Positions 38,639 through 55,789 of a stretch of DNA of 64,000 nt are shown in pieces. The notes under the pieces are model-generated. The model ran no database searches, was not told the origin of the DNA, and was given only the letters and a program-made list of their open reading frames with translations. Each line of letters opens with the position of its first letter. Position 1 is the first letter of the stretch. Made by a program: the position numbers and the translations under genes. The stretch is from positions 1 through 64,000 of the IMG/VR virus record IMGVR_UViG_3300023175_002299. One strand, written 5' to 3'. This stretch comes from a virus.

Positions 38639-39366
38639 ATTTAGTTAATCATGATTATATTGAATTTCCTTTTGTGGAATTTGATTTTTCCATCTGTGAA
38701 AGAATACCCTACAAACACCAACTGGAAACTCATCCACACATGCCAAAACATGTGTTGCAACACATTTGCAGCATGATTCCAGAAGATGAACTGAAAGAAA
38801 TTATTGATACCAGTTATTATTTTCTCACGGATACATATGGAGAAAAGTCTGTACAATCTCAATCGGACAAAAAAATATTGATTGAAGATTTCCCCTTTAA
38901 CGAGATACACGATAGAGCAAAATTAACTGTACAACACTATCTAGAGTCTGCACAAGGATCGTTTACTTTTTTGTTCGGAAATAATCAATACAGACCCCCA
39001 ACCGCAAAACTTTTTCAACACGCCCATGCGGTAAACTTTATTGAAGGTGTTGAAAATAGAAGAACGTTTACGGTCATCTATCCATTGAAACAAGATTTGC
39101 CAGTCACGGAAAAGTTTCATATATTTCATACCGACAACACTCCTTGGGTAGAGAACAAGGACTTATACCATATGTTAAGGTTACCATTTATAACTCCTGT
39201 CCCAGATGAAGGTGTTGTTAGTATAGACTTTCCAAAAAAAGGTGAAATGTTATTGTTAGAATTCAATTCTGTAAATGGTGTACATTGGATTGATGGATTG
39301 GATGAAAATAATTATATGTGTCACGTTTTCGATGCAGCTATTTTGAGAGAACCTTTCCATGCTTAA
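38635..39366 (+). CDS. Possible 2OG-Fe(II) oxygenase-like protein
   Basis: 243 aa. Possible metal ligands are the HTD in FHIFHTDN and a distal histidine in SVNGVHWIDG, with RTFTVIYPL as a sheet strand between HAHAVNF and the HTD. The order is compatible with a cupin or 2-oxoglutarate oxygenase barrel, but I cannot assign it firmly. It precedes a clear oxygenase of the Asp/Asn-hydroxylase type, overlapping it by 8 nt. Confidence 0.45.
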   Translation: MNLVNHDYIEFPFVEFDFSICERIPYKHQLETHPHMPKHVLQHICSMIPEDELKEIIDTSYYFLTDTYGEKSVQSQSDKKILIEDFPFNEIHDRAKLTVQHYLESAQGSFTFLFGNNQYRPPTAKLFQHAHAVNFIEGVENRRTFTVIYPLKQDLPVTEKFHIFHTDNTPWVENKDLYHMLRLPFITPVPDEGVVSIDFPKKGEMLLLEFNSVNGVHWIDGLDENNYMCHVFDAAILREPFHA

Positions 39367-40057
39367 GAAAAGACAGTTGCCTGCCTGTGCGCCAATTCCA
39401 AATATTAAGTTTGATATTGGGATGATGAAAGAAGAATTGTCTCGTATAGGAGACAAGTGGCAGAATATTTACGATGCAAACCCAGGCATAACCAAGTTGC
39501 ACGATCAGGGTTTCCTTGCACAGATTTACAGCACTCTTCATGAAATACCTCTGATGTCAATGTCTCCAGAAAATATGAAGAAGGCAGAAGAGTTTGAAAT
39601 TACTGATATTGGTAAATCAAAAATTGAGAGGGTGAGAAACAAATCCGCAAAGGGTGACAATTTACCACCAACTGCAAATGAAATGTTGTGGGACTATCCT
39701 TTGGAAGATTATACTGGGAGTTATTTTGAAAAGGCTATTACAGAAAATTTCAAAGCAGAAGTGTGTCGTGCTAGGATACACTTACTGGAGCCAGGCAAAG
39801 ATATCTCGCCCCATATTGACTATGATCCTTCTTATGGCGTTCGTGTCATTTGTCCCATATCAGGTACAGAAGGGACAACAAACTTTTTTTGGTATAATGG
39901 TGAGAAACAATCTTACAATCTCAAAGCGGATGGGTCAGTCTACTTCTTAAATACAGGATTTAGACATTCCGTGGAGAATCGTGGAACGGAGAATAGAGTT
40001 GCTTTGGTATGGACATTGAAATCCCAAGAAGACATCGAATGTCTGGCTTTGAAATAA
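39359..40057 (+). CDS. 2OG-Fe(II) oxygenase (aspartyl/asparaginyl hydroxylase family)
   Basis: 232 aa. The C-terminal half carries RIHLLEPGKDISPHIDYD with the HxD pair, a hydrophobic strand VRVICPISGTEG, and FLNTGFRHSVENRGTENRVAL with the distal histidine and the arginine that binds 2-oxoglutarate. The family hydroxylates protein side chains or small molecules. In this operon it may tailor the same product as the radical SAM enzymes. Confidence 0.8.
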   Translation: MLKKRQLPACAPIPNIKFDIGMMKEELSRIGDKWQNIYDANPGITKLHDQGFLAQIYSTLHEIPLMSMSPENMKKAEEFEITDIGKSKIERVRNKSAKGDNLPPTANEMLWDYPLEDYTGSYFEKAITENFKAEVCRARIHLLEPGKDISPHIDYDPSYGVRVICPISGTEGTTNFFWYNGEKQSYNLKADGSVYFLNTGFRHSVENRGTENRVALVWTLKSQEDIECLALK

Positions 40058-40626
40058 CCACATACGCCCCAGATAAAAAATCAGAAGTAGAAACTTTTAG
40101 AGAATTGTCCTTTGCAGAGGGCAACGATAGTTTAGCTTATGACAAGTATGATCCCGATAACATTGATGGGGAAACTTGGTTGGTTTATGTAGATGGTGAA
40201 CTTGCATGTATTAGTGTGGCAGAATCCAGTCATTACACCAGCGACCCAGAAATATCCGCAAGAATATGTAGACTTCACATTGCAAAGAAGTTTAGACCAG
40301 CATGGTTGGGTATACCAATTCTACCCTATCAGATAGAATGGGCTAGACAAAGGGGGTTTAAGGTGTTATACTTTACTCATGATATCAACAATCGTGCGAT
40401 AAATTTGATGTACCAACATAAAAGATTTGGTGCCGCAGTTACCCCGTTGCAAAAACAAATCAAGGATATGTGGCATAGTGATTGGTATAAAGCATTGAAA
40501 ACAGACGATAGATATTTCTTTCAAGTCGATTCAAATAGTGATCTACTGCAATACATCTATTATTGGACATTAGAAGATGGGTTTGTTTGGAATCCAGTTT
40601 CTAATGTTGTTAGGAGAACATCTTGA
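40039..40626 (+). CDS. GNAT-like acetyltransferase
   Basis: 195 aa. A beta strand ARICRLHIAKKFRPAWLGIPIL followed by a helix and VLYFTHDINNRAINLMYQHK follows the GNAT layout, in which the pyrophosphate loop comes before a helix and an asparagine-containing strand. The canonical Q/RxxGxG/A loop is degenerate (RPAWLG). The ATG at 40039 is chosen over 40009 to reduce overlap. It may N-acylate an amino sugar. Confidence 0.5.
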   Translation: MSGFEITTYAPDKKSEVETFRELSFAEGNDSLAYDKYDPDNIDGETWLVYVDGELACISVAESSHYTSDPEISARICRLHIAKKFRPAWLGIPILPYQIEWARQRGFKVLYFTHDINNRAINLMYQHKRFGAAVTPLQKQIKDMWHSDWYKALKTDDRYFFQVDSNSDLLQYIYYWTLEDGFVWNPVSNVVRRTS

Positions 40627-41216
40627 TTTTTTCTATTGATACAATGTCTTCTTGGTTTAATTATATGAGAGAAAACCCAGACGACAGACGATTCCTAGAA
40701 TGTTTTTGGGATACCCAATTACAAAGCAAAGAAAGAGTAATTGAACTCTACCCAGAATTCTTGCACGGCCCATGTTATATCTTCGGTGGGTGGTATGGCG
40801 TCCTTGCAAAGATGATTGAAGATAACAGGTTTGTCTCTGATGTCAACTCTATTGATGTTGATGCAAAGTGTGAAGAAGTCGGCAACAAATATTTTTCTAG
40901 TCAGTTTGTTAATTTTATTACTGCCGACATGAAAAACTTTTCTTACGACAAAGACCCAGATGTTGTTATCAATACAAGTACGGAACACGTTGATCAAGAA
41001 ACTTTTGATTCTTGGTATAACAATATTCCAGACGGTACTTTTGTTATCATGCAAGGCAACAATTTAATCATACCAGAACACATAAGACCCTTTAATAATT
41101 TAGATGATTTTGTTATGCGAAACAAGTGTTCGGTGACACACGCAGAGGAAATGGAACTGCCGGGCCCAAACAATACAACATATAAAAGATTTACGGTGAC
41201 AGGTTACAAAGAATGA
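40623..41216 (+). CDS. Class I methyltransferase-like protein
   Basis: 197 aa from a TTG with AGGAGA upstream. CYIFGGWYGVLAKMI corresponds to the SAM loop, NSIDVDAKC to the acidic strand, ITADMKNFSYDKDPDVVINTSTEHV to the next strand-loop, and GTFVIMQGNN to a later strand. The SAM-loop glycines are fewer than usual. Probably a small-molecule methyltransferase. Confidence 0.6.
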   Translation: MIFSIDTMSSWFNYMRENPDDRRFLECFWDTQLQSKERVIELYPEFLHGPCYIFGGWYGVLAKMIEDNRFVSDVNSIDVDAKCEEVGNKYFSSQFVNFITADMKNFSYDKDPDVVINTSTEHVDQETFDSWYNNIPDGTFVIMQGNNLIIPEHIRPFNNLDDFVMRNKCSVTHAEEMELPGPNNTTYKRFTVTGYKE

Positions 41217-41959
41217 AAATTGCTATAGTTGGTTATGGTTTTGTTGGTAAATCAACGGAATTGCTTTTTAGTGAACATGAGTGTTTGATACACGATCCAG
41301 CTTTGGGTTATGAAATTAAATCTTGGTCTGATGTTCAATATACTTTTATTTGTGTTCCAACTCCTATTAATGATTTTACCAAAAAGGGTTTGTCAAAATC
41401 TGTAGTCAAGGATGCTATTAGGGAAGTTAGGAGTAAAACTAGCAAATCAAACCGTGGTGGTAAGATTGTTGTCAGAAGCACTCTAGGCCCAGATCAATTG
41501 GAAGATGATTGGATTTACATGCCGGAGTTTTTGAGAGAAAATCACTGGAAAGAGGATACAATGGATCATCGCAAATCGGTGATAATTGGTGCTAGTGATG
41601 AAGAAGATTTTTTTGCCCTTCAGTACGCTTTGCCATTCATGAAAACCGCTCATCGTGTCTCACCCAGAGAAGCTGCGATATATAAGATGAGTAGAAATTC
41701 TTTACTTGCAGCTAGAGTCATGTTTGCAAATCATGTTTATGATGTTTGTGAAAAAAATGGTGCCGATTACAATAATATAAAAAAATTGTATGTGGTTGAG
41801 AATGAATTTGGTTGGACACATTGGGATGTCCCCGGCCCAGATGGTAAACGTGGATTTGGGGGCAAGTGTCTACCAAAAGACACAAAACATTTTGCAAATT
41901 TGATTTCTGATAAAAACATGTTCACCCAAATTTTAGAAGACAATGAAAACTCCCGTTGA
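41213..41959 (+). CDS. Nucleotide-sugar (UDP-glucose/GDP-mannose) dehydrogenase, short form
   Basis: 248 aa. IAIVGYGFVGKSTELLF is the NAD-binding loop, FICVPTP and VVRSTLGP are family strands, PEFLREN and MSRNSLLAARV belong to the central helix, and the catalytic cysteine is in GFGGKCLPKD. The normal third domain, which binds the nucleotide-sugar base (about 120 residues), is missing, so it may work with a partner or on a smaller substrate. A second family member lies at 55786-56946. Confidence 0.8.
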   Translation: MKIAIVGYGFVGKSTELLFSEHECLIHDPALGYEIKSWSDVQYTFICVPTPINDFTKKGLSKSVVKDAIREVRSKTSKSNRGGKIVVRSTLGPDQLEDDWIYMPEFLRENHWKEDTMDHRKSVIIGASDEEDFFALQYALPFMKTAHRVSPREAAIYKMSRNSLLAARVMFANHVYDVCEKNGADYNNIKKLYVVENEFGWTHWDVPGPDGKRGFGGKCLPKDTKHFANLISDKNMFTQILEDNENSR

Positions 41960-43250
41960 ATATTACAAAGAGTTGCAGGACAGGTACGATAAAGTCGGGC
42001 CTGGATTTTGTGTGCTCAAATGGCATCATTTGGAAATGCATCTCAGTTCTGCTCAAAGTCATTCTTGTTTCCATTGTCCACAAAGACACATAGATTTGGA
42101 AGAAGACTTCCACAACACAGAACAAAAGATGCGACAAAGAAAAACAATGCTGGAAGGTGGTCGCCCAGTGGAGTGTTTTTATTGTTGGAATGTTGAAGAC
42201 AGTGGTTCTATTAGTCCGAGGATTGCATTAACTCCAATATACACGGAGATGCAATCAGATATTATTGAGACTACTGCTAGGATGCAGTGGGACGAACCAG
42301 TATATCCAAAATACTTGGAGATGAGTTTTAGTAACAAGTGTCAGATGAAGTGCAGTTATTGTTCCACGCAGAACAGTTCTTCATTGCACGAAGAAATCAA
42401 AAAATTTGGCGAGTATCCTTTGATACACCCAGAAAACAATTCCCAGTATGTTTCTCATGGAAGAGAAAACTTGTGGCCAGAAAACAGTGAAATGTATGAC
42501 AAGTTTTGGAAGTGGATAAGAGAAGCAGTCATGCACTTACAAGTAATTAGGATTACTGGCGGCGAACCTTTGTTGAGCGAACATACATTCAAACTGGCAA
42601 AGTTTATTCGCAATCATCCCAACGGAGAAAATATTGCATTTCATGTCAACAGCAACCTATCTGTTTCTACGAGACGGGTTGATAGAATAATAAAAACCAT
42701 GTCCGAGATGAAGTCACCCAAGATTTATGCCAGTGTTGATACTTTGGGTGAACAGGCAGAATGGATTCGCCACGGACTGAATTGGAAAACATTTGAAATC
42801 AATCTGGTTCAAATTTTGAATGCTAGTATTCCAGTTGGATTAATGGTAACATTTAATCTCCTGAGTATTCCTAAGTTCAAAGAATTTCTTGGATATGTTT
42901 TGGAATTAAAAAGACTTGGCGATGTAAAACTTGATACTCCTTATATGACAAATCCCAAACATCTTTCTGCTTTAATACTTGACGACAATATGATGAATAT
43001 GTTGAAAGATGCTGAAAAATTCATGGAACAGAATACGGATGACGGCGACAATTTAAAATTTAATTCTGGTGAGTTGCAAAAATTTAAAACTGTTGTTAAA
43101 TGGGTAGAAAAAAATAGGTTTGTTGAAGAAGACCTAAATACTCATAGAAAAGATTTTAAACTTTTTGTCGATGAACACGATAAACGCAGAAATGTTAGTT
43201 GGCATGATGCGTTTCCAGAATTACAATATTTTTATGATGAGATATCATGA
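41943..43250 (+). CDS. Radical SAM protein 1 (N-terminal SPASM/twitch-like module)
   Basis: 435 aa. Radical SAM cluster CQMKCSYC (C133, C137, C140) and the SAM-binding ITGGEP at about 201-206. Before the core lie additional cysteines: FCVLKW (C23), SCFHC (C42, C45) and ECFYCW (C78, C81), likely binding an auxiliary iron-sulfur cluster. This N-terminal placement is inverted relative to usual SPASM or twitch enzymes, where the auxiliary part is C-terminal. It is closest in layout to copies 2 and 3. The chemistry and substrate are unknown. Confidence 0.85.
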   Translation: MKTPVEYYKELQDRYDKVGPGFCVLKWHHLEMHLSSAQSHSCFHCPQRHIDLEEDFHNTEQKMRQRKTMLEGGRPVECFYCWNVEDSGSISPRIALTPIYTEMQSDIIETTARMQWDEPVYPKYLEMSFSNKCQMKCSYCSTQNSSSLHEEIKKFGEYPLIHPENNSQYVSHGRENLWPENSEMYDKFWKWIREAVMHLQVIRITGGEPLLSEHTFKLAKFIRNHPNGENIAFHVNSNLSVSTRRVDRIIKTMSEMKSPKIYASVDTLGEQAEWIRHGLNWKTFEINLVQILNASIPVGLMVTFNLLSIPKFKEFLGYVLELKRLGDVKLDTPYMTNPKHLSALILDDNMMNMLKDAEKFMEQNTDDGDNLKFNSGELQKFKTVVKWVEKNRFVEEDLNTHRKDFKLFVDEHDKRRNVSWHDAFPELQYFYDEIS

Positions 43251-44626
43251 CACAAACCAATGAACACTGGATTGAAGTACTAAAAGAAAAACGAATTAAG
43301 ATCAACGAGATTAGTCCGTCTTTTTGTTCTGCTAAGTGGTTGCAAACTACTTTGATGTTGCAGAACGGATACAATCATTCTTGTCACCATCCATCTCCAC
43401 ACAAAATCCCTGTTGCAGAGATTAAAATCAATCCTGCTGCTTTGCACAATAGCAATTATAAAAAACAGCAAAGAATAAAAATGATTAATGGAGAGAGGCC
43501 TCGTGAGTGTGACTATTGTTGGAGAATAGAAGATCAGGACAAGGATCATTTTTCTGATCGTCATTACAAGACTTCTGATTGGTGGGCTTGGGACAAGGTT
43601 GATGTCATTGCAACCAGTGATCCCACGGAAGATGTGTACCCGACTTACCTTGAGGTGTCTTTTAGTAACGCATGTAACTTTGCCTGCGCTTATTGTTCAC
43701 CAGAGATATCCTCAACGTGGATGAAAGACATTGAGTCTAATGGTGAGTATCCAGTGCAGTTTGGTTCTCACAATTTAGACTATTTGAGAGAGACAGAAAA
43801 GTTTCCTTACAAACACTCTGATCCCAATCCATATGTTGATGCTTTCTGGGATTGGTTTCCAGAAGCACTTCCGCATCTAAAAGTTTTCCGAATCACTGGT
43901 GGCGAACCCACCATGAGTAAAGATGTCTGGAAGGTGTTGGACTATATTTACGATAACGCCCAACCAGAACTGTCTATTGCAATCAATAGTAATTTGGGAA
44001 CTGATCCTCGACTCATACAGAAACTTATTGATTCTGTGAACAAGGTGAAGGACAAGGTAAAACAAATTGAAATTTACACAAGTTGTGAGGCAACGGGTAG
44101 ACAGGCAGAGTATGCCAGAGATGGGTTGGATTATGGATACTGGTATGCAAACGTACAACGAGTTTTGAATGAGACTGATGCCAATGTTGCAATCATGACA
44201 ACACTCAACATTCTCAGTCTGCCCACGTTTTGTAACTTCATCGAAGACATTATGAAACTCAGAGTGGAATTCAATAGAGACCTTGCACATAACAGAGTAC
44301 CCCTAAGTGTGAATTATCTTAGATTTCCCCCTCACTTGCAATGCACTTTACTTGATAAGATAACGAGAATATCTTATGCTAGTGATATTGAAAACTTGGC
44401 GGAGTCTTGGTTGAAGTATTACTCGCCAGATAAGTTTGCCAGAATTTATCTTGAAGAGTTTGACCAAATACAAAGATTCTGTGAGTATCTTAGAATTACC
44501 GAAGTCGCTGATAAACATAGAGGTGATTTTGTCAAGTACATAACCGAGTATGACAAGAGAAGACAGAAAGATTTTAGAAACACTTTTCCACAGTATGCAC
44601 ATTTGTTAGAGGATTGGGATGAGTAA
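43247..44626 (+). CDS. Radical SAM protein 2
   Basis: 459 aa. Core cluster CNFACAYC (C143, C147, C150) and ITGGEP. The N-terminal cysteine set is FCSAKW (C27), SCHHP (C46) and ECDYCW (C88, C91); histidines H47-H48 may substitute for one cysteine. SPEISSTWMKD follows the core motif. It overlaps copy 1 as ATGA and copy 3 by 8 nt. Group A (copies 1-3) shares the FCxxKW and ExCxYCW signatures. Confidence 0.85.
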   Translation: MTQTNEHWIEVLKEKRIKINEISPSFCSAKWLQTTLMLQNGYNHSCHHPSPHKIPVAEIKINPAALHNSNYKKQQRIKMINGERPRECDYCWRIEDQDKDHFSDRHYKTSDWWAWDKVDVIATSDPTEDVYPTYLEVSFSNACNFACAYCSPEISSTWMKDIESNGEYPVQFGSHNLDYLRETEKFPYKHSDPNPYVDAFWDWFPEALPHLKVFRITGGEPTMSKDVWKVLDYIYDNAQPELSIAINSNLGTDPRLIQKLIDSVNKVKDKVKQIEIYTSCEATGRQAEYARDGLDYGYWYANVQRVLNETDANVAIMTTLNILSLPTFCNFIEDIMKLRVEFNRDLAHNRVPLSVNYLRFPPHLQCTLLDKITRISYASDIENLAESWLKYYSPDKFARIYLEEFDQIQRFCEYLRITEVADKHRGDFVKYITEYDKRRQKDFRNTFPQYAHLLEDWDE

Positions 44627-46112
44627 AGAATTTGACTTGATTAAGTATCGAAAAGATATTCTTGATACAAAATCTGAAAGTTTCTGTGGTGCTAAGTGGT
44701 ATAATGCTACAACTTGGCTAGGCAGTGGTACTACCGCTTCTTGTCATCACCCTCCAGCACATAAGATTCCATTAGAAGAGATTGCTGTAGACCCATCTGC
44801 TATTCATAACACTCGCCACAAGAAGGCGATGCGTAAGATGATGCAGAGAGGAGAACGACCACGAGAATGTGAGTACTGCTGGAAAGTGGAAGACATGGGC
44901 AAAGATGCCGTGTCTGATCGTGTGTTTAAATCTATCATCTATTCAAATGCAGACTTACAGAAAGCATATGAAATGGATCACAATGAAAGTGTTGATCTGA
45001 AAACATTTGAGATTGCATTTGACCGTACTTGTCAGTTGGCTTGTTCTTATTGCAATGCATCTTTCTCTACAACATGGGCAAAAGATATCACCAAGAAGGG
45101 TGCGTATCAGAACATGGTGTCGGATGGTGCAGCTGCGTTTCAACAAGACGGCGCATGGGCAGAACCATATGCAAAAGATGAAGACAATCCATACATTAAG
45201 GCTTTTTGGGATTGGTGGGAAGACGGATTATCTGACAGTCTAGAAGAGTTGCGTATTACTGGTGGTGAACCACTGATGTCTGACCAAGTGTGGAAGTTGT
45301 TCGACTGGTTCAATGATAATCCCAGCAAGATGCGTTTTGCTATTAACTCAAATCTCATGGCAAAAGATAGTTTGATTGACCGACTAATTGAACGAAGTCA
45401 AGGTGTCAATGACTTTCATTTGTATACTAGTTGTGAAGCGACTGGACTACAAGCGGATTACATTCGTGACGGACTGCACTACGATACATGGAAGAAAAAC
45501 ATGTACAAGATTATGGACAACTGTAATCTGAAGGGACTGAATATTATGATGACCATCAATAGTCTGTGCTTGTTTAGTATCACCGAGTTCCTTGATGATG
45601 TCTATGAGATGAAGTTACATACTGGCACAAAAGCACCTGTTGTTAGTGTGAACTTGTTACGTTTTCCAAGTTTTCAATCACCGCTCGCACTCCCAGATCA
45701 TATAAAAGACTATCTGCGGGAACAGTTGGAAGATTGGTATAACGCAGTCAAAGAGCAACCACTGTGGCACGATTTCGAGAAGGCAAGCATCGAAAGACTG
45801 ATTGACTATCTTGTTACAGTTGATGCACCACACAGACGCACCAGCGACAAGATGACTCTGTGGAGAGACTTTAAAACTTTCTTCAAACAGTATGATGAGA
45901 GACGAAATAAGTCACTCAATGTATTTCCAGAAATTCTTACTGACTGGGTTGATACTATTCCAGATACAGAGACGATTGCCGTAAAGTTGGTTGATGGTGA
46001 CAGTACAAGACAATATGACGATGACCCCGATCTGAAAAAGATTGCAGAGGAAGAGGGGTGGGTGTTGAAACCAGACAATAAAAACATAGACGATCCATTA
46101 GCAGAGTACTAA
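44619..46112 (+). CDS. Radical SAM protein 3
   Basis: 497 aa, the longest of the seven. Core CQLACSYC (C138, C142, C145) and ITGGEP. N-terminal FCGAKW (C23), SCHHP (C42) and ECEYCW (C84, C87). A C-terminal extension of about 50 residues after the DKMTLWRDF helix is acidic. It has the same group-A signature as copies 1 and 2, so this is a tandem triplication. A 2OG oxygenase gene follows 1 nt later. Confidence 0.85.
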   Translation: MSKEFDLIKYRKDILDTKSESFCGAKWYNATTWLGSGTTASCHHPPAHKIPLEEIAVDPSAIHNTRHKKAMRKMMQRGERPRECEYCWKVEDMGKDAVSDRVFKSIIYSNADLQKAYEMDHNESVDLKTFEIAFDRTCQLACSYCNASFSTTWAKDITKKGAYQNMVSDGAAAFQQDGAWAEPYAKDEDNPYIKAFWDWWEDGLSDSLEELRITGGEPLMSDQVWKLFDWFNDNPSKMRFAINSNLMAKDSLIDRLIERSQGVNDFHLYTSCEATGLQADYIRDGLHYDTWKKNMYKIMDNCNLKGLNIMMTINSLCLFSITEFLDDVYEMKLHTGTKAPVVSVNLLRFPSFQSPLALPDHIKDYLREQLEDWYNAVKEQPLWHDFEKASIERLIDYLVTVDAPHRRTSDKMTLWRDFKTFFKQYDERRNKSLNVFPEILTDWVDTIPDTETIAVKLVDGDSTRQYDDDPDLKKIAEEEGWVLKPDNKNIDDPLAEY

Positions 46113-46113
46113 A

Positions 46114-46656
46114 ATGATATTTCAAAAAATTAATTTCAACTATGATCTGAATAAGTTTTTAAATGGTGACTTCTCTCAACATTTTGGCAGTTGTATTTCT
46201 TATCAAAAAAGAGAACAGACGGACATTCATGAAACTATTGGAGATGGATTTCCAGAATCTTACCATGAAGACAATACAAGAATACAACAAATTTGGTGGA
46301 CGGAAGATGACATTGATTATAAGGAGATAGGAAGTCTTTTAAACATTGATGTGAAAACAATCAGTGCAATTCTTCAACCGCCTGGAAATGTTGTTACTTT
46401 ACACAGGGATACTTTTTTCAAATTTAAAAATCTCTATCCAGATGATAATAGACCAAAAGTCAGGGCAAATATATTCTTAGAAGACTGGCAAGTAGGACAT
46501 TTTCTTCAGTACAAACATGGGGATGACTGGGTTAGTTGTACTCATTGGAATGCTGGTGAGGGGTATTTGTGGGACAGCGAACCACTCCACCTAAGTTGCA
46601 ACGCTGGGTTGACAAACAAATATACTTTACAAGTCAGCGGATTTTATGATGTTTGA
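46114..46656 (+). CDS. 2OG-Fe(II) oxygenase-like protein
   Basis: 180 aa. The metal pair is HRD in VVTLHRDTFFKF, a sheet strand VRANIFLEDW follows, and the distal histidine is in SEPLHLSCNAGLTNKYTLQV. The QPPG before the HRD and the N-K-Y after the distal histidine fit the 2-oxoglutarate oxygenases seen in marine T4-like phages. It lies between group-A and group-B radical SAM genes. Confidence 0.65.
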   Translation: MIFQKINFNYDLNKFLNGDFSQHFGSCISYQKREQTDIHETIGDGFPESYHEDNTRIQQIWWTEDDIDYKEIGSLLNIDVKTISAILQPPGNVVTLHRDTFFKFKNLYPDDNRPKVRANIFLEDWQVGHFLQYKHGDDWVSCTHWNAGEGYLWDSEPLHLSCNAGLTNKYTLQVSGFYDV

Positions 46657-47647
46657 AGGTGAGGGTACTGCTGATCCAGCAGGATATTGTATGTTCATTG
46701 ACGGGGTTATGTACCCAATATACGGACAAACCCTAATCAATGGATATAAGTTGGCTACTGGAGAAGCTCGTGATAGTATTGTAAATATTTATATGCCACA
46801 AGAGATTGAAATAGCTTATAGAGACCCAAATGACAACGAGATAAAATTCCTAGATGTAAACAAAATGCCATGTAAAGTATTTTCTCTGATTGACGCCAGA
46901 GTATATTACTGGTGGTGGATGTATGTTTTTTGGTACTATATGTTACATCAAGGAAAAGACTACCAGATTTCTGAAGAGATTTTTTGGAAAGACATAGAAA
47001 AAAATTTAAATTCTGACCATGATATTTCATTTATTACTATGTGGGCTAGGAGAAGGCCCCACAGAGATGTTTTGTGGAAAAAAATATCTCCTATTATTAA
47101 TGAGTATTGTAAGTATCATGCTGGAGAAAAATTAAACGTTTATAAAATTGTTAAGTGGTATTCAGAGAGGGAATTGTGCCCAGAATTTTATCCGAGAGTT
47201 TTGATTGATTTTGTTACCGAAACAGATGAAAATGTAATTTTTTTAACAGAGAAAACTTTTAGGCCAATTGTATATGGAAAGATTCCTTTGATTTATGCAG
47301 CACCAAAAACTTACCAAAGGTTGTTTATGTGTGGATATACGCCACACCCAGAAATTGATTACTCTTTCGATAGGGTTATTGATAACGAAAAACGTGGTGA
47401 AATGATAATAGAACAACTTGATAATTTGATTAATACATATGAAGTTTCTGAATTATCGGATATTACTAGAGAAATAAGATTGAAAAATTTTGAATGGGCT
47501 TTCAATTTTGCAAAAACTGATACTGGGCCTCCTCCATTTCCGAAACACATCCCCAGACCATGGCCAACTATGATTGAATCGGTTTTTTTGATACATGAAA
47601 AATTTAAAGAAATGGAAATTCCAGAGGGTTTGATTCTTGAAAGATAA
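46646..47647 (+). CDS. Glycosyltransferase-like protein (family copy 3)
   Basis: 333 aa. Family blocks are present: MWARRRPHRDVLWKKI, VLIDFVTETDENVIFLTEKTFRPIVYG with KIPLIYA after it, and CGYTPHPEIDYSFDRVIDNEKRG. The N-terminal region is divergent and contains a WWW/aromatic stretch. The blocks resemble nucleotide-sugar-binding elements of exostosin/GT10-type enzymes; assignment is inference. It overlaps radical SAM copy 4 by 11 nt. Confidence 0.55.
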   Translation: MMFEGEGTADPAGYCMFIDGVMYPIYGQTLINGYKLATGEARDSIVNIYMPQEIEIAYRDPNDNEIKFLDVNKMPCKVFSLIDARVYYWWWMYVFWYYMLHQGKDYQISEEIFWKDIEKNLNSDHDISFITMWARRRPHRDVLWKKISPIINEYCKYHAGEKLNVYKIVKWYSERELCPEFYPRVLIDFVTETDENVIFLTEKTFRPIVYGKIPLIYAAPKTYQRLFMCGYTPHPEIDYSFDRVIDNEKRGEMIIEQLDNLINTYEVSELSDITREIRLKNFEWAFNFAKTDTGPPPFPKHIPRPWPTMIESVFLIHEKFKEMEIPEGLILER

Positions 47648-48938
47648 TCCCTACTTCTGTACTGCACCGTGGACTCACACATACGTCTCCCCGCAAGGAG
47701 AACGTAGACTTTGTTGTGCTAGCAGAGAAGAGGCCTCATTTCAAAAACAGTATATTGATAGCGGAACCGCAAAGGGTAAGTTTGAACCAGTATCATTAGA
47801 AGAACACTGGAACAGCGATTACATGAAAGACATTCGTAAAAGAATGTTGGCCGGCGAACGTTTGCCCCAATGCGAAGTTTGTAATGATCAGATATTGAAC
47901 TTGCACACATATAAAAAATATTTCACGGAAACCTTGTTTCCGCATAAAGTGGAAAGTATAATATCCAATACATCGCCAGATGGTTACTATAGTGACCATC
48001 CAGTTTCATATGACTATAGAATATCTAATCTATGCAACTTTAAGTGTAGGATGTGTGGCGAACAATTGTCCAGCAGTTGGGAAGCTGAGAAAAAGAAACT
48101 CAACCTCATTGATATAACAGAAGAACCTTGGTTGGAACCCAATACGAGAAAACAAATCGGCAATTTTCAAAAAGAAGTTTTAGAAGAAGAATTGCAACGT
48201 GCTGTTGACAACGAAACGATAGAAGAGATTTATTGGGTTGGTGGGGAACCTCTAATGTGGGAACGTCACTGGACTGTCATGCAACAACTTGTTGATAGTG
48301 GTCACTCAAAAAATGTTACGGTAAGATATAATACGAATTTGAGTAGAACATCATTTAACGGGTCTCACCTCTATGACTTACTGCCGCACTTTAAGAAAGT
48401 AAACATTTGTGCAAGTATTGACGGAGCGTATACCGTTGGGGAATATATCAGAGACGGGTTGAAGTGGAATGAGTGGATCGAAAACTTTCAAGAGGGATTG
48501 TTTTTGATCGACCAGTTTGGTGATGATGCAATGGTGTTTGATGTAACGTTGACAACGCCCGGCCTGTTCTATCTGAAGGATTTGTTTCATGAAGCATTCA
48601 GACTGAATGTAAAGTCATACTTCAAGTTTACTTTTGCATTTGACCCATCTGTTGTAATGAGTCCGATGTGTTTGCCAAAACATATTTCAAAACCACTTTG
48701 TGAAAGTCTCATCTCGGATTTAGCACCATACACCACTTGGAAGAATCGTGTGTATACTGACTCTTTGAACAACCTAATAAATAGACAGTCATTTGATGAA
48801 CAATGGCCAGAAACATATTGTGATGGGTTAAAACGTGGCAAATCCTTTCAAGAATTTCTAGACGAAAAAAGAAATAGTTGTATTACATTTAGAGATACGC
48901 TGTATGGTGATGCAGTGGATTGGTGGGATAATATATGA
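47637..48938 (+). CDS. Radical SAM protein 4
   Basis: 433 aa from a TTG with AGAGGG upstream. Group B: FCTAPW (C8), LCCAS (C26, C27), PQCEVC (C79, C82), core CNFKCRMC (C133, C137, C140), and YWVGGEP in the SAM-binding strand. Overall order is auxiliary-cysteine module then core, as in all seven copies. It is separated from copies 5-7 by a sulfotransferase-like gene. Confidence 0.85.
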   Translation: MKDNPYFCTAPWTHTYVSPQGERRLCCASREEASFQKQYIDSGTAKGKFEPVSLEEHWNSDYMKDIRKRMLAGERLPQCEVCNDQILNLHTYKKYFTETLFPHKVESIISNTSPDGYYSDHPVSYDYRISNLCNFKCRMCGEQLSSSWEAEKKKLNLIDITEEPWLEPNTRKQIGNFQKEVLEEELQRAVDNETIEEIYWVGGEPLMWERHWTVMQQLVDSGHSKNVTVRYNTNLSRTSFNGSHLYDLLPHFKKVNICASIDGAYTVGEYIRDGLKWNEWIENFQEGLFLIDQFGDDAMVFDVTLTTPGLFYLKDLFHEAFRLNVKSYFKFTFAFDPSVVMSPMCLPKHISKPLCESLISDLAPYTTWKNRVYTDSLNNLINRQSFDEQWPETYCDGLKRGKSFQEFLDEKRNSCITFRDTLYGDAVDWWDNI

Positions 48939-49456
48939 AATTAATAATTGCAAATTATAGAACTGGTTCTACTACCTTTTCTCTTCTCCTCGGAGGAGAT
49001 GGTGATGAATGGTTGCACAACACCGTTTGTGATTATAGACCACCCACACCAGAGTTGGACGTATATAAAGTAATTCCAGATCAGTTTCATTATGATAGAT
49101 ATTACGAACAATTTAAAAAAGATTATCTAGAAAATGCTGATGAAATATACTACACTCTGAGAGAGGATGTTTCCAATCAAATTAAGTCACATGCCTATTG
49201 TGGAATTTCAAATGATTGGCATCCGTGGCAAAAGCTTACAGAACCAGATTGGGATGCGGATATGCAAGTTTCATTGGAATACTCTTTTAAAGTAATACTG
49301 AAGTGTCTGGAGTGGCAGTCAAAAATATATAAAGAATTTGGTGGAAAACTTGTTTGGTTGGAGGATCGCAATGACGGGGAAAAATATACTAGAAGATTGG
49401 ATTTAGATCAACCAGATGTAAATGTTAATATTGATGTAAAAGGTATGTTCCTGTGA
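48935..49456 (+). CDS. Small sulfotransferase-like P-loop protein
   Basis: 173 aa. The N-terminus LIIANYRTGSTTFSLLLGG resembles the phosphosulfate-binding loop of sulfotransferases (R-T-G-S-T). YYTLREDVSNQIKSHAY resembles the 3'-phosphate-binding region (R...S). It is short for the fold, so it may be a minimal or degenerate form. It could add sulfate to the operon product. ATGA overlap with copy 4 and GTGA with copy 5. Confidence 0.5.
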   Translation: MKLIIANYRTGSTTFSLLLGGDGDEWLHNTVCDYRPPTPELDVYKVIPDQFHYDRYYEQFKKDYLENADEIYYTLREDVSNQIKSHAYCGISNDWHPWQKLTEPDWDADMQVSLEYSFKVILKCLEWQSKIYKEFGGKLVWLEDRNDGEKYTRRLDLDQPDVNVNIDVKGMFL

Positions 49457-50721
49457 GTAAAACTTTTTGTCCACTTCCGTGGAATCACTTAGCAACACAC
49501 CCACACGGTGTTTGCACCCTATGTTGCGAATCAGAACAACAGGATGGCATTTCTCAAGCTTTCAACGACTATGGACATGGAAGAAAACTGATCACACTAC
49601 AGAATGTTGATGACTTTTCTAAGATTACCAATTCTGATAGTTTTAGCAAAGTCAGGAAAAAAATGTTAAACGGAGAACAACCCGTTGAGTGTAGAAAGTG
49701 CTGGGATTTGGAGAGTGTCGGTGTCAAGAGTAAACGATACTATGAAAGTCGTAGAGTCCCTATGGATGTTGAATACGCTAAGAGTATCACAAACGAAGAT
49801 GGAACACTTAAAGAAGTCAATTATGAATTTGTTGAATTGCGTTTGGGTAACCACTGCAATGTACAGTGTCGTACATGCAATCCATATTCTAGCTCTCGGT
49901 GGATGAAAGATTGGGATGTAATTTACCCAGAACGTCCGGCACTACCAGAGATGATGAGTCAGAAAAATTTCAACTGGCCTTTGGATCAGGGCTTTTGGGA
50001 TAAACTGATAACAAGATGCGACAAACTCAAAGTATTGTATATCAATGGTGGCGAACCATTCATTGTTGATAAACATATGGATTTTCTGTCAACTCTGGTT
50101 GATATGGGATTGGCCAAAAATGTTGAAATAGTTTATTCGACAAATTGCACCGTGGTGAACAAGGACTACGAAGAAATTTGGAAGAATTTTAAACACGTTC
50201 AGTTTATGTTGTCCATTGATGATGTTGGCGACAGGAATGAATATATCAGAACATTTACCAAGTGGGAAAAGGTTTTAGAGTTTGTCACTTGGATGATGAG
50301 TATGACTGCTAGATATAAAAACATTAATTACAATATCTTGCAGACGGTATCTACATATAATGTCTACTATGTACCAGAGTTCTATGAATTTTTCAAGGAT
50401 AAGGTTCCTCTGAGGGGTCACCCCCTAGAAGATTCATCTTTGCATATTAGTCATAACTTTGTGAATGATCCAGAACACTTTGATTGCAGGGTTTTGCCAA
50501 AAGAAGTTCAAAAAGTTGTTTTGCAGAGACTTGAAGGATATCAGGGATACAACGATATAAAAAATTATCTCAGTGTCGATGGTGAAAATAGATGGGGCGG
50601 CGGAGTATCAGGAAACATGAAAATGTTTTTTGAAAAAACCAGATCAATGGACGAGTTGAGAAAACAGTCCTTTGAAAAAACTTTTCCAGAACTTTATGAA
50701 TTGATAAAAGATTATGAGTAA
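49453..50721 (+). CDS. Radical SAM protein 5
   Basis: 422 aa from a GTG overlapping the previous stop. FCPLPW (C6), CTLCC (C21, C24, C25), ECRKCW (C80, C83), core CNVQCRTC (C135, C139, C142), and YINGGEP. The CxxCC pattern in the N-terminal module matches the second SPASM-like cysteine block. It is followed by copies 6 and 7 with 8-nt overlaps, forming a second tandem triplet. Confidence 0.85.
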   Translation: MSKTFCPLPWNHLATHPHGVCTLCCESEQQDGISQAFNDYGHGRKLITLQNVDDFSKITNSDSFSKVRKKMLNGEQPVECRKCWDLESVGVKSKRYYESRRVPMDVEYAKSITNEDGTLKEVNYEFVELRLGNHCNVQCRTCNPYSSSRWMKDWDVIYPERPALPEMMSQKNFNWPLDQGFWDKLITRCDKLKVLYINGGEPFIVDKHMDFLSTLVDMGLAKNVEIVYSTNCTVVNKDYEEIWKNFKHVQFMLSIDDVGDRNEYIRTFTKWEKVLEFVTWMMSMTARYKNINYNILQTVSTYNVYYVPEFYEFFKDKVPLRGHPLEDSSLHISHNFVNDPEHFDCRVLPKEVQKVVLQRLEGYQGYNDIKNYLSVDGENRWGGGVSGNMKMFFEKTRSMDELRKQSFEKTFPELYELIKDYE

Positions 50722-51958
50722 AGGAAAAAATAATCCCACAAAGACAAAGATAAAGAACGACAATCTTTGTATTATACCTTGGATACATTTGCATACATGG
50801 CCAAACGGGTCAGTATACCCATGTTGCATTTCTCCAATGGAACACCGTGTAGGCAATCTAAACGAAAAAAGTCTTCAAGAAATATTCAACGATGACAAGA
50901 TGAAAAAAATTCGTCTTGAGATGTTGGATAACAAAAGACCCGAAAGTTGCCAGAGGTGTTACATACAAGAAGACTGCGGCGCTCACTCTTTTAGAATGAG
51001 TTCAAACAGAGATTTTAATCAACATAGTGATTTGATAGAATCTACCAACGATGATGGTTCCGTTGACGAGATTAGATTGTCTTACTGGGACTTTCGGTTT
51101 TCAAACGTTTGCAATTTTAAGTGCAGAAGTTGTGGGCCTCAGTTGAGTACGGGATGGTACAGTGATACTAAGAAAATTGCAGAGATGGAAACTGGCAGAA
51201 AATTTTTGCCAGATGATATTCCCAGAGAAGTACACTTTGATTTGTGGGAAGACATACAACCTTACTTTGAAGATGTAGAAATCATTTACTTTGCTGGTGG
51301 TGAACCATTGATCATGGAAGAACACTATCGCATCTTGAAAAAACTTGATGAGATGGGTAGACACGATGTGCAGATTAGATACAACACGAATTTCAGTGAG
51401 ATGCGATACAAGGACTTGCATGTTCTTGAATATTGGCCGAAATTCAAAAACGTCAGTGTTGGTGCTAGTATTGACGGAATGAAAGAACAGGGTGAACTCA
51501 TTCGCAGTGGTTTCAAGTGGGATCAGTTTGTTCAGAACAGAGAAAAGATGAAAGAACTTTGTCCTCATGTTGACTTTTATGTAAACTGTACGGTCAGTGT
51601 TCAAAATGCATTTCATTGCATCAAGTTTCATCAAGCCTTATTTGATCAAGAATTTATATCTGGTTTAGATAAGTTTCATGTGAATCCTGTTATGGAACCC
51701 CCTCTCCTAAGTTTACAAATTCTTCCGATAGAAACCAAGAAAATGTTGACAACTCAATATAGAATACACGTTGACATGTTGAAGAAATATGGCCATAATG
51801 CTGTTGCAAATGATTTTGAATCTCTGATGACATTCATGAATTCAGAAGATAGACAAGATTTGATAAAACCATTTTTACATAAAATGGAAACCTTAGATAT
51901 TATTAGAAACGAAGACTTTTTTAAGACCTTCCCAGAACTAGAGGTTTTGCGTGGATAA
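50714..51958 (+). CDS. Radical SAM protein 6
   Basis: 414 aa. LCIIPW (C19), PCCIS (C37, C38), SCQRCY (C79, C82), core CNFKCRSC (C133, C137, C140), and YFAGGEP. A long glutamate/lysine helix follows the core. It is close in layout to copies 4 and 7, including the motif GPQLSTGWYSD after the core, where copy 4 has GEQLSSSWEAE. Confidence 0.85.
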   Translation: MSKGKNNPTKTKIKNDNLCIIPWIHLHTWPNGSVYPCCISPMEHRVGNLNEKSLQEIFNDDKMKKIRLEMLDNKRPESCQRCYIQEDCGAHSFRMSSNRDFNQHSDLIESTNDDGSVDEIRLSYWDFRFSNVCNFKCRSCGPQLSTGWYSDTKKIAEMETGRKFLPDDIPREVHFDLWEDIQPYFEDVEIIYFAGGEPLIMEEHYRILKKLDEMGRHDVQIRYNTNFSEMRYKDLHVLEYWPKFKNVSVGASIDGMKEQGELIRSGFKWDQFVQNREKMKELCPHVDFYVNCTVSVQNAFHCIKFHQALFDQEFISGLDKFHVNPVMEPPLLSLQILPIETKKMLTTQYRIHVDMLKKYGHNAVANDFESLMTFMNSEDRQDLIKPFLHKMETLDIIRNEDFFKTFPELEVLRG

Positions 51959-53117
51959 AATTTGTTTACTGCCTTGGATACACACCGAGTTTACTACAGA
52001 AGGTACTGCCAAACCATGTTGTTTATATCGTGGTGAACCAATGGGGAATCTCAAAGAAGAATCCTTGATGGACATTTGGAGTGGCGAAAAGTACAATAAT
52101 CTGCGACAAGAATTTCTTGATGGAAAAATGCCTTCTGGTTGTGCTATGTGTTGGCAGAACGAAGATGCTGGATACAAGTCAAAAAGATTGCAAGATATCG
52201 ACAGGTTTTCTAATCATGTAGACAAAATAGGAAAAGATATAACTCCCCCAGTTTATCTTGATTTAAAGTTTGGTACATTGTGTAATCTAAAATGTCGATC
52301 TTGTGGAAGTGTAAACTCTTCCAGTTGGAAGGCAGATGAAATTAAAATGTACGGAAGAGTGCTTGATAACAAAGATGCTTTGTGGGTGAAAAAGAATCCT
52401 GGCGTCTGGGAAGAACTTGATAAAATTATGCCGACAGTAGAACATATGGATTTTACTGGTGGAGAACCTTTTATGATAGATCAACATTTTGATCTGTTGC
52501 GACATGCAGTTGATTCTGGTTATGCCAAGAACATTGCCATACATTACAATACAAACGGAACAATTAGACCCCCCAAAGAAATATTTGATCTGTGGAAAGA
52601 ATTTAAACACTGTGAAATCATGTTCAGTATAGATGGCGTTGGAGAACAATTTGAGTATATTCGCAGTGGTGCTGTGTGGGATGAGGTTTGGGAAAACTTC
52701 AATCATTTCAAATCCCATAAATTTCTCAACATACAAATATGTCATACTGTTAGTTTGTTTAACGTATATTATTTGAATGATTTTGTAGAAACATTTGATG
52801 GTAATAACATTTATTTCAATTTGTTGCACTTCCCCAGACAATATTGTGTTCGTAATATGCCAGATTCCAGCAAAGATAAAGTTCGTGAGAAAATTATAAA
52901 TATTCCCAACACCGATGCCATTATAAACTTTATGATGCAAGAGGCCGAACACGATAAGTTAGACTTGGGTTTCATTGCGGTGACAGAAAGACTTGACTCA
53001 GTAAGAGAAGAAGACTACAAAAAAACTTTTCCAGAATTTTATGAGATTTTAGTAGATGGCGGCATCAGAAACAGACCTTGGGAATATCCAGACTTTATTA
53101 CAAAAAGTTCTGGATGA
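51951..53117 (+). CDS. Radical SAM protein 7
   Basis: 388 aa, the shortest copy, from a GTG start. ICLLPW (C5), PCCLY (C23, C24), GCAMCW (C64, C67), core CNLKCRSC (C111, C115, C118), and DFTGGEP. Its end overlaps the next glycosyltransferase-like gene by 62 nt, the largest overlap in the operon. Same architecture as the others. Confidence 0.85.
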   Translation: MDKICLLPWIHTEFTTEGTAKPCCLYRGEPMGNLKEESLMDIWSGEKYNNLRQEFLDGKMPSGCAMCWQNEDAGYKSKRLQDIDRFSNHVDKIGKDITPPVYLDLKFGTLCNLKCRSCGSVNSSSWKADEIKMYGRVLDNKDALWVKKNPGVWEELDKIMPTVEHMDFTGGEPFMIDQHFDLLRHAVDSGYAKNIAIHYNTNGTIRPPKEIFDLWKEFKHCEIMFSIDGVGEQFEYIRSGAVWDEVWENFNHFKSHKFLNIQICHTVSLFNVYYLNDFVETFDGNNIYFNLLHFPRQYCVRNMPDSSKDKVREKIINIPNTDAIINFMMQEAEHDKLDLGFIAVTERLDSVREEDYKKTFPEFYEILVDGGIRNRPWEYPDFITKSSG

Positions 53118-54765
53118 AGTACAATCTCTTAGAAAAGAGATATCTGTACTTAAAACTAATCCCAGAAAAATTTCTAACCAACCCCCTATCCTCTGGTTTG
53201 ATAAACTGCCCCCTATAAGGGAGTTGGCTAAAGGCGAATATCCACAAAAAAATAGTTCATCAGACCCACATAATAAAGTTTGTTTCGGCCCTACTGATAT
53301 TGTTGACCTTTATGAAAGAATGGGCATTCCATTTGAAATGAAAGATATTTCTGATTGGAATGATACTTACGTTGACAGAGACAACCTTTATTTCATAGAA
53401 ATTGTACAAGTACATGTGAACGTAGAAGACATTTTCTGTGGATGTAATCATCATGCCTTGCAGATGGTTAGAGAAAGAAAGATGGCAATGGTTTTCTGGT
53501 TTCCGCACGAGGGATTTGGGATGGCATCTTTGAGAGATGTTGTCAACGATAATCCTTGGATGACTAGACTTGTTAAAAAAATTGTAGATTATGACCTAAG
53601 TGGAGGAGTACATTATTTTATCTACGGTGATTTTAATGTACAAAAAAACTTTGACAGGTGGAAGAGGGCCAATCCAGAAATAGAATTTGAATTTAAAAAA
53701 TGTTTTGGCATTGATTTTTTCCATGAACATTACTTCAAACAATATGTTTCCAGAACTTGTTGGAGATTCAATCCTTCCCACAACTTTGATAAGTACAAAT
53801 CTGTTGAAAGTTTTGGTGATTATCATTGTTCCAAACATCGAGATGCTTACATCGAGTTTGAAGATTTACCAGAACAAGTTAAAAAATCTAAACAAGATAC
53901 CAATAAACCCGGCTGGCCTAGATTGCAATGGGCAGACGAATATAGAGATATCAGACTTGATGAAGTTATGGCAGATGTCCCCCCGGCCACGGAAAAAGAA
54001 AGAGATTTGATCTGCCTGAATGCAAGAGTAAGACCCCATAGACCAGTAATTGTCTCTGAATTATTTAGATTGGGATATGACAATAATAACTCTTACATTA
54101 GTTTTTTAGCCAGAGACGAGAACCCAGAAGAACATCCAGAACTTTATTGGAAGTTCAAATATTTTTATACTAAATCTGAATACAGGGAAGATACTATAGA
54201 AGATTGGGTTTCTAACGAGTGGACTGCGCCCAACACGATCATGGAATTTGAAACACAACGAGAATTTTTCTATAAATTTTGGCATAAAAATGATATTATA
54301 TCTATTGACATCAATACGGACTCGGTGACCAAAGATGATAGAAGGATCACGTTGGATCACTACAGAAAATCATTTTTTGCTTTAGTTAGTGAAACTCTTT
54401 TCGGTTTAGATGATAGTAATTGTTTGCAGATTACAGAGAAGATTTATAAGTGTTTTGCTTATAGAATTCCATTCATGGTAGTGGGTTCACCAGGCACATT
54501 AGAACACCTCAGAGATATGGGGTACGAAACATTTCCAGAAATGTTTGATGAGACGTATGATTCTATTTTAAACCCGAAGAAAAGAATGTCACATATTATT
54601 AGAAATTTAGAAAGATGGAAAACACTAACCCATGCAGAAAAATTTAGACTGTACGAGTCGGTCAGACCTAAACTCTATAGAAACTACGAACATTTTAAAA
54701 ACTGTTCTTCTGTTCGTATCGCTGAACATAGAAATATTTTTAATGAACTAAGATTATATGACTGA
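53056..54765 (+). CDS. Glycosyltransferase-like protein (family copy 4)
   Basis: 569 aa, the longest family member. The first 35 residues form a coiled coil (IQTLLQKVLDEVQSLRKEIS). The family blocks are ICLNARVRPHRPVIVSELF at about 320, CLQITEKIYKCFAYRIPFM, and MGYETFPEMFDETYDS. EK...K followed by P-F-M-V-V-G is the presumed nucleotide-sugar half. The ATG at 53056 lies inside radical SAM copy 7, and the start is not certain. Acceptor unknown. Confidence 0.6.
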   Translation: MAASETDLGNIQTLLQKVLDEVQSLRKEISVLKTNPRKISNQPPILWFDKLPPIRELAKGEYPQKNSSSDPHNKVCFGPTDIVDLYERMGIPFEMKDISDWNDTYVDRDNLYFIEIVQVHVNVEDIFCGCNHHALQMVRERKMAMVFWFPHEGFGMASLRDVVNDNPWMTRLVKKIVDYDLSGGVHYFIYGDFNVQKNFDRWKRANPEIEFEFKKCFGIDFFHEHYFKQYVSRTCWRFNPSHNFDKYKSVESFGDYHCSKHRDAYIEFEDLPEQVKKSKQDTNKPGWPRLQWADEYRDIRLDEVMADVPPATEKERDLICLNARVRPHRPVIVSELFRLGYDNNNSYISFLARDENPEEHPELYWKFKYFYTKSEYREDTIEDWVSNEWTAPNTIMEFETQREFFYKFWHKNDIISIDINTDSVTKDDRRITLDHYRKSFFALVSETLFGLDDSNCLQITEKIYKCFAYRIPFMVVGSPGTLEHLRDMGYETFPEMFDETYDSILNPKKRMSHIIRNLERWKTLTHAEKFRLYESVRPKLYRNYEHFKNCSSVRIAEHRNIFNELRLYD

Positions 54766-55789
54766 TTATTTTACGAATGGGCCATCAATAAAATCTGGCA
54801 ACAACCAGATTACAGATTTTGACAGGGTTTTTTTCAAAAGGATTCTTGAACTTATACCAGATGATGTTTGTCTTATTGATACCACTTGGATAAATGATCC
54901 AATAACATTTCAAAAATTTGTTGATTGGCAAATTACTACAGACAAAAAAAGAGCATTTCTATATTCTGGTATGGATTGGATGAATACACACTGCGAACCA
55001 GTGTGTACTGCTGCTCATATATTTCTACAATATAGATTTGATTGCACTCATATTGGAAACACTTCTGAGGGACACTATTTCAGTTTTTGGGTTGAATTTA
55101 TAGATTTTTACAAAAAATATTTTTTTGATGAATGCTACACATCAAAACCAAATTTACAATATCATTTTATGTGTTTAAATAACAAACCCAATGATCATAG
55201 AAGGCACTTGTTAAATAAGATTTTTGAACAAGAAACAATTTATAAAAAAGGAAACATATCTGTATTACAAAGAGACGCCGGATACAATTTTGAACACCCA
55301 ATTATTCTTGAAGAAAATAGACCACCAGAACTGGTAAATATGTTTTATGACCACGAAGTTTTATCTGACAAACATATAGCAAATGATATAATTTCTCTGG
55401 GAGACCCAACGCATTGGAACTCCCACTTTGTCAATGTTGTTACGGAAAGTGCTGCTCATACAGATGTTTTTCTGAGCGAAAAGATTTTTAAACCAATTAT
55501 AGGATTAAGACCTTTTCTTGCTTTGGGGGATAGAAACTTATACCCAAAACTAAGAGAATTTGGATTCGATACTTTTGAAGATTTGTTTCCCAATGTTGGA
55601 CTTGATGTTGATAGAGATCAAAGAACTGACAACTTGGTAAAGGATTTAAAAAAGGTGTGCCTTACTCCCATAGAAGAACTTGACAGAATTTATTCTTCCA
55701 TATATAATAGGTTGGAAAATAATCGTAATCTAATGATAGAATTAATCACAAAAAACAAACAATGGATAGAGGATTTGAAAACATTATGA
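54758..55789 (+). CDS. Glycosyltransferase-like protein (family copy 5)
   Basis: 343 aa, adjacent paralogue of copy 4. Blocks: FMCLNNKPNDHRRHLLNKIF, NVVTESAAHTDVFLSEKIFKP followed by LRPFLALG, and FGFDTFEDLFPNVG. The RPHR of other copies is PNDHRR here. The pair 53056/54758 overlaps by 8 nt. Probably forms or extends the same glycan as the other copies. Confidence 0.6.
   Translation: MTDYFTNGPSIKSGNNQITDFDRVFFKRILELIPDDVCLIDTTWINDPITFQKFVDWQITTDKKRAFLYSGMDWMNTHCEPVCTAAHIFLQYRFDCTHIGNTSEGHYFSFWVEFIDFYKKYFFDECYTSKPNLQYHFMCLNNKPNDHRRHLLNKIFEQETIYKKGNISVLQRDAGYNFEHPIILEENRPPELVNMFYDHEVLSDKHIANDIISLGDPTHWNSHFVNVVTESAAHTDVFLSEKIFKPIIGLRPFLALGDRNLYPKLREFGFDTFEDLFPNVGLDVDRDQRTDNLVKDLKKVCLTPIEELDRIYSSIYNRLENNRNLMIELITKNKQWIEDLKTL

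Follow-up and report, generated by a model that had tools for sequence, protein, structure and literature searches.

The genes described here lie on a T4-like phage record of IMG/VR (IMGVR_UViG_3300023175_002299; 72,710 bases), of which bases 1–64000 were analysed and are called the window in the following. The record carries the T4-like genes gp32, primase, tail tube, baseplate hub and head closure. Between 41943 and 53117 the window contains seven open reading frames (ORFs), all on the plus strand and 388–497 residues long, that encode radical S-adenosylmethionine (SAM) proteins of one architecture, here called N-twitch. They are numbered copies 1 to 7, and c1 to c7 denote the corresponding lineages. 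All seven match the N_Twi_rSAM model (NCBIfam: NF033640) over its full length: copy 1 (41943–43250) with 294 bits, copy 2 (43247–44626) with 321, copy 3 (44619–46112) with 299, copy 4 (47637–48938) with 323, copy 5 (49453–50721) with 352, copy 6 (50714–51958) with 410 and copy 7 (51951–53117) with 372 bits. The model cut-off is 170 bits and the E-values range from 2e-87 to 1e-122, which excludes a chance resemblance. The N-terminal cysteine module, the CxxxCxxC core and the GGEP motif that the original prediction had read in the seven ORFs are present in every copy. The operon is larger than had been claimed, since overlapping or abutting genes run from 37602 to 57764, and a carbamoyltransferase gene starts 101 bases further on.

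The four-cysteine auxiliary-cluster module (residues 1–90) is located N-terminally to the CxxxCxxC radical SAM core in all seven proteins. In copy 6 numbering, the residues that are invariant among the seven are C19, C38, C79 and C82 of the auxiliary module and C133, C137 and C140 of the core, together with the GGEP motif. In copy 3 the auxiliary cysteines are residues 23, 42, 84 and 87. Across 305 sequences of the clades c1 to c7, the four auxiliary and three core cysteines are essentially invariant and GGEP is nearly so. The proposed division into copies 1–3 and copies 4–7 is reflected in the residue preceding the second auxiliary cysteine, which is Ser in the first group and Cys in the second, and this holds throughout the 305 relatives with the exception of one Ala and two gaps. 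Some details of the motifs had been misread: copy 1 has SCFHCP rather than SCHHP, and the second CxxC is followed by Trp in five copies, with Asn in copy 4 and Tyr in copy 6. The radical SAM domain (Pfam: PF04055) scores above the cut-off in five of the seven copies. The SPASM domain (Pfam: PF13186) does so in copies 4–7, within residues 5–84 and thus ahead of the core; copies 1–3 have no Pfam SPASM match and possess the same four auxiliary cysteines by alignment. The Twitch/SPASM subclass is characterised by an auxiliary module C-terminal to the core, whereas the module found here precedes it.

Profile comparison indicates homology of the N-terminal module to the auxiliary domain at the C-terminus of BtrN, which acts as a radical SAM dehydrogenase in the biosynthesis of the aminoglycoside butirosin. 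Residues 5–76 of the copy 6 group profile align with this domain (E=3e-4 and 6e-4), and C19, C38, C79 and C82 of copy 6 land on cysteines of the BtrN auxiliary-cluster region, which we take to be the BtrN cluster ligands. Because N-terminal residues match a domain that follows the core in BtrN, the arrangement is permuted relative to BtrN, as the inverted order put forward in the original prediction had implied. The seven copies also differ from BtrN by extra C-terminal helices. Structure prediction had been proposed as a check, and we modelled copies 6 and 3 with AlphaFold2. Copy 6 reached a predicted local distance difference test score (pLDDT) of 93 and a predicted template modelling score (pTM) of 0.89, copy 3 a pLDDT of 88.9 and a pTM of 0.87. 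The auxiliary region is predicted to be confidently folded in both models, with pLDDT mostly above 85–90. Foldseek searches of these models against the PDB returned only generic radical SAM cores, with a template modelling score (TM-score) of up to 0.40 by query length, which is expected for a permuted protein. Among the matched cores are those of the SPASM maturases CteB, anSME, SuiB and EpeE (E about 1e-5 to 1e-3). These enzymes share the core fold with the seven copies, and the Pfam SPASM model matches the N-terminal module, but the TM-score is not above 0.40, the cysteine module sits at the opposite end and no precursor peptide was found in the cassettes. The auxiliary module would probably hold a [4Fe-4S] cluster, and the seven proteins are presumably active enzymes.

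For comparison with the window we assembled 79 loci from bacteria and about 80 from other phages. Trees were built from 448 distinct proteins and from 70 representatives, the latter with 1000 ultrafast bootstraps. The seven copies are separate old lineages which recur both in chromosomes of Bdellovibrionota and in phages that are very distant. The other copies are only 20–31% identical to copy 6. A phylogeny had been suggested as a further check, and it came out clean for part of the copies. In the tree of representatives the clades c1, c3, c4 and c5 have a support of 100 each, c1 being found only in the phage lineage of the window, and the copy 6 clade has a support of 96 and takes in one extra bacterial protein. 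Monophyly is not clean for c2 and c7, and orthology is weaker for both as a result. A recent tandem duplication of the seven copies, which we also considered, is ruled out by the trees. In a Bacteriovoracaceae cluster (L089) the order is c3-c4-c5-c6-c7, followed by c2-c3 and then by c2, with 34–53% identity to the proteins of the window; the duplications are older than the split of these phages from this cluster. Nearly all loci carry one member of a lineage: two or more c3 genes were found in three of 108 loci and two c4 genes in none of 57. That the lineages are separate, and that a locus holds about one copy of each, speaks for distinct steps without redundancy. Seven copies are no record, as a 344-kb phage has 14 members of the family. 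The highest count that we saw is 16, in a 2.7-Mb bacterial genome (G198, locus L149).

The lineages c2 and c3 occur as a near-invariant pair. Of 95 loci, 69 have c2 immediately ahead of c3, and in another 22 one gene intervenes. The pairwise divergences of c2 and c3 correlate with r=0.92 (n=71 phage loci), whereas gene pairs that include other recurrent families of these loci reach 0.27–0.58. The value of 0.92 is in part due to co-transfer of adjacent genes, and the value for the neighbour family F0 is lowered by paralogy within F0; the correlation therefore supports a c2-c3 partnership, which the sequences suggest, and falls short of proving it.

Three settings of the pair were distinguished in phages. 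In the main layout, that of most phage loci, tail fibre genes (families F6 and F3) are followed by F4, two GT8-like genes (F2), F7, F0, c2 and c3. The genes downstream of the pair are variable and can be c4-c5, c6-c7-c4 or other family members together with other radical SAM/SPASM genes. In the second layout, GT7-containing genes flank the pair on one side and genes of the tail sheath, tail tube and baseplate hub on the other. The window locus represents a third layout, downstream of desaturase, hydroxylase-like and methyltransferase-like genes.

The most widespread member is c3, with relatives confirmed on at least 575 stretches of IMG/VR; for c4 there are at least 520. Copy 3 had no tblastn match among 50,697 GenBank phages, and a megablast search with the 19-kb region against the GenBank phages gave no match. 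For copies 2 and 6 only distant Vibrio phage relatives were found in GenBank phages, at about 24–29% identity. Two cultured Vibrio phages carry small groups of distant radical SAM relatives: KVP40 (L253), with three radical SAM genes listed in the stretch, and K566 (L254), with three of them close together. Within Bdellovibrionota, 41 of 144 genomes have at least one member, and many have five to eleven. Two Bdellovibrionota c2/c3 loci have a common unannotated neighbour (L089:15715-16677 and L247:9200-10117), in which we noticed by eye a nucleotidyltransferase-like SDLDLTV/SDIDVTLV motif.

Around and between the seven copies, the genes given here from 37928 to 63912 are likewise on the plus strand. 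Upstream in the gene chain are a fatty acid desaturase-like gene (37928–38638; Pfam: PF00487, E=6e-13; family F16), which recurs with the cassette in the phage lineage of the window (16 viral loci), and a gene for an Asp/Asn beta-hydroxylase-like 2-oxoglutarate (2OG) oxygenase (39359–40057; Pfam: PF05118, E=1.5e-5; family F14, 17 viral loci). They are followed by a SAM-dependent methyltransferase-like gene (40623–41216) of the recurrent partner family F5, which is found at 29 of the 72 non-redundant c3 loci of phages and whose family profile matches the methyltransferase 3dtn (E=5.5e-5). Next to copy 1 is a UDP-glucose/GDP-mannose dehydrogenase-like gene (41213–41959), and a second one lies at 55762–56946. 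In both, the nicotinamide adenine dinucleotide (NAD) and central domains (Pfam: PF03721 and PF00984) are the only ones matched. The original prediction was right that sugar genes are nearby, but a label of UDP-glucose dehydrogenase is weak. We considered true UDP-glucose dehydrogenases at both positions and kept the genes as '-like', because the C-terminal UDP-binding domain is unmatched.

Between copies 3 and 4 are a small protein without Pfam match that is 2OG-oxygenase-like by eye only (46114–46656) and a member of family F1 (46646–47647), a possible GT-B-like glycosyltransferase with a TEK...PI motif only and without a Pfam or PDB match. F1 occurs in 43 of the 72 phage loci, and two further members, possible glycosyltransferases by F1 membership and also without Pfam match, follow copy 7 (53056–54765 and 54758–55789). 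Another small protein, between copies 4 and 5 (48935–49456), has a start that looks sulfotransferase-like by eye, which is unconfirmed by any Pfam or PDB match. Beyond the chain are the NodU/TobZ-type carbamoyltransferase gene (57866–59296; Pfam: PF16861, E=3e-49 and PF02543, E=6e-34) and an NAD-dependent sugar epimerase/dehydratase-like gene (63052–63912; Pfam: PF01370, E=3e-40). Just outside the window lies an eighth radical SAM gene, whose product weakly matches a B12-binding domain (L008:9960-11465; record G000, about 65959–67464). Adjacent secreted-looking genes on the minus strand at 34280–37520 (families F35 and F17, without Pfam match) lie ahead of the cassette in the relatives of the window, too. 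One of them encodes an N/T-rich low-complexity protein, and a correspondence of these genes to the curli-associated region of pelagimyophages is possible but unconfirmed. Elsewhere in the window, a protein with a TonB-dependent receptor plug domain (Pfam: PF07715) is encoded at 19160–20686.

Several lines of evidence point to a glycan as the substrate. BtrN, the closest solved relative of the auxiliary domain, acts on an aminoglycoside precursor. At least one GT8-like, GT7, sugar-dehydrogenase-like, epimerase or carbamoyltransferase gene is present in 61 of the 72 non-redundant phage loci. The sugar- and carbamoyl-type neighbours noted earlier in the window were also seen in unrelated bacteria: in 40 bacterial genomes, six of 39 NodU-type carbamoyltransferase genes lie at most 12 kb from a family member where 0.55 were expected (P about 2e-5), an enrichment of about tenfold. 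Bacteroidota family loci resemble polysaccharide export clusters, as read off the sequence and not by a family search. Carbamoyltransferase genes are found in 15 of 36 loci with c4 compared with five of 28 without c4, which is suggestive only. Beside five-copy phage cassettes we also found StrB/AGAT-type amidinotransferase genes (L066:2704-3720 and L063:17164-18183), whose products are related to inosamine-phosphate amidinotransferase and to L-arginine:glycine amidinotransferase.

Based on the BtrN-like auxiliary domain, the sugar-gene neighbours, the NodU-type enrichment and the polysaccharide-like Bacteroidota loci, we favour a cassette of biosynthetic genes by which an unusual glycan is tailored through stepwise radical chemistry, with the c2-c3 pair as its core, and give this reading about an even chance of being correct. 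The glycan would most likely be located on the surface of the infected host or on the virion fibres. In each N-twitch enzyme, the [4Fe-4S] cluster of the core would cleave SAM and a hydrogen would be abstracted from a sugar carbon, and the N-terminal auxiliary [4Fe-4S] cluster may help to carry an electron in or out. The outcome could be dehydrogenation, epimerisation or deoxygenation. As a fixed partnership, either in consecutive steps or as a hetero-complex, c2 and c3 would supply the core chemistry. The copies c1 and c4–c7, together with the methyl-, carbamoyl- and hydroxyl-adding enzymes and the glycosyltransferase-like proteins, may form a decoration layer that varies between phages. A more far-reaching version, which we hold to be possible but doubtful, is that a radical-SAM sugar-tailoring pathway built on an obligate c2-c3 pair, with a permuted BtrN-type cluster and aminocyclitol-like chemistry, moves as one unit between T4-like and jumbo phages of the environment and the predatory Bdellovibrionota. 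Aminocyclitol-like chemistry is suggested here because BtrN-like, carbamoyltransferase and amidinotransferase genes occur together.

A number of observations weigh against a glycan pathway. In L089 and in an Oligoflexia locus (L079) the same enzymes lie amid housekeeping genes with no sugar genes adjoining, which weakens an argument from the neighbourhood alone. The proximity of carbamoyltransferase genes shows shared glycan islands and not a shared pathway. The operon includes the desaturase and Asp/Asn hydroxylase-like genes, which would fit lipid or protein targets. The glycosyltransferase-like genes of the window were not confirmed by Pfam and PDB searches, and for the neighbour families F0 and F1 profile searches gave no informative relatives, leaving a glycosyltransferase role unconfirmed. 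Furthermore, no relative with a known substrate was found in the literature and structure searches, and no solved structure covering the full architecture was found in the PDB by Foldseek and profile searches.

The glycan cassette has a serious rival in a protein target, because the pair so often adjoins fibre genes. According to this explanation, which we consider unlikely overall, c2-c3 and their companions would act radically on the tail fibre or on other virion proteins encoded next to them, for example by introducing D-residues, cross-links, hydroxyl or keto groups. The pair is a few genes away from a tail fibre gene or amid tail sheath, tail tube and baseplate genes in most phage loci, although the cassette of the window is located away from tail fibres and the Bdellovibrionota loci are without structural genes. 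Divergence of c3 and the fibre genes correlates with r of only 0.57–0.58, against 0.92 for c2-c3. Most of the solved SPASM relatives found by Foldseek (CteB, anSME, SuiB and EpeE) act on peptides and Asp/Asn hydroxylase-like genes lie within the operon, but the Pfam matches, in the absence of a separate search for it, included no peptide-binding domain of the RiPP recognition element (RRE) type, where RiPP stands for ribosomally synthesised and post-translationally modified peptide.

Alternatively, the substrate might be a lipid, a cofactor or another non-glycan small molecule, with the glycan genes just co-residents of a variable island; we regard this as rather improbable. The enzymes standing alone in the housekeeping surroundings of Bdellovibrionota are what would be expected for a common metabolite, and the fatty acid desaturase recurs upstream in the lineage of the window. 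Most other cassettes, however, have no desaturase, GT8-like, GT7 or dehydrogenase-like genes are present in most phage loci, and the association with carbamoyltransferases in distant bacteria is an independent one.

A role as RiPP maturases whose precursor peptide has escaped notice is very unlikely for the copies. It is mainly as RiPP maturases that SPASM/twitch radical SAM enzymes are known, and there is weak similarity to several maturase models. The best small-ORF family is nevertheless common to only 14 of 115 loci, which disfavours this explanation, and the overlapping genes leave no room between copies 1–3 or 4–7 in the window, so that the earlier statement that no precursor is obvious is borne out. 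Nucleotide or DNA hypermodification, or an antiviral-type nucleotide chemistry as in viperin or QueE, is the least probable of the alternatives and hardly to be expected: DNA modification is frequent in T4-like phages and the core is weakly similar to viperin and QueE, but this similarity is confined to the generic core, the auxiliary domain is BtrN-like, and no nucleotide genes are among the recurrent neighbours examined, a minority of whose families could be identified.

Returning to the cassette as a whole, a complete pathway with seven such enzymes in a phage had been put forward as undescribed. The architecture is not undescribed, as NF033640 is already curated with the same N-terminal module and core as in all seven copies. 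What this model names is an architecture; it gives neither a function nor a multi-enzyme set, and the seven lineages and the c2-c3 pair are not separated in it. Neither is the phenomenon new, and in the literature searched for the family or for a pathway in phages we came upon two prior mentions only. Nishimura and colleagues described TARA_ERS488813_N000010, a marine T4-like viral genome that holds 12 radical SAM genes (PMC5332604). It is similarly rich in radical SAM genes but, compared by description only and in the part of the paper available, it is treated in terms of iron-sulfur usage, without orthologous sets, pairing or a pathway (PMC5332604). In the host recognition cluster of pelagimyophages, radical SAM cassettes vary within an island of tail-fibre and glycosyltransferase genes, the setting also of most loci found here; in the available text the radical SAM genes are mentioned in passing, without analysis of architecture or family (PMC7029224). 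The enzymes are thus known, whereas the system, with its orthologous set, its pair and its link to Bdellovibrionota, is apparently undescribed.

The N_Twi_rSAM family has a name and is abundant in uncultured phages, yet no known reaction was found for it in the literature. With the seven lineages and the near-invariant pair, the observation that a phage can have many radical SAM genes becomes a defined and testable target. Bdellovibrionota, in which the enzymes stand alone, offer simple bacterial sources, and phage QD01, which is cultured on Vibrio natriegens and has distant relatives, provides an opening for genetics. If the more far-reaching version of the sugar-tailoring pathway is correct, no multi-step radical pathway of viruses would have been known before it.

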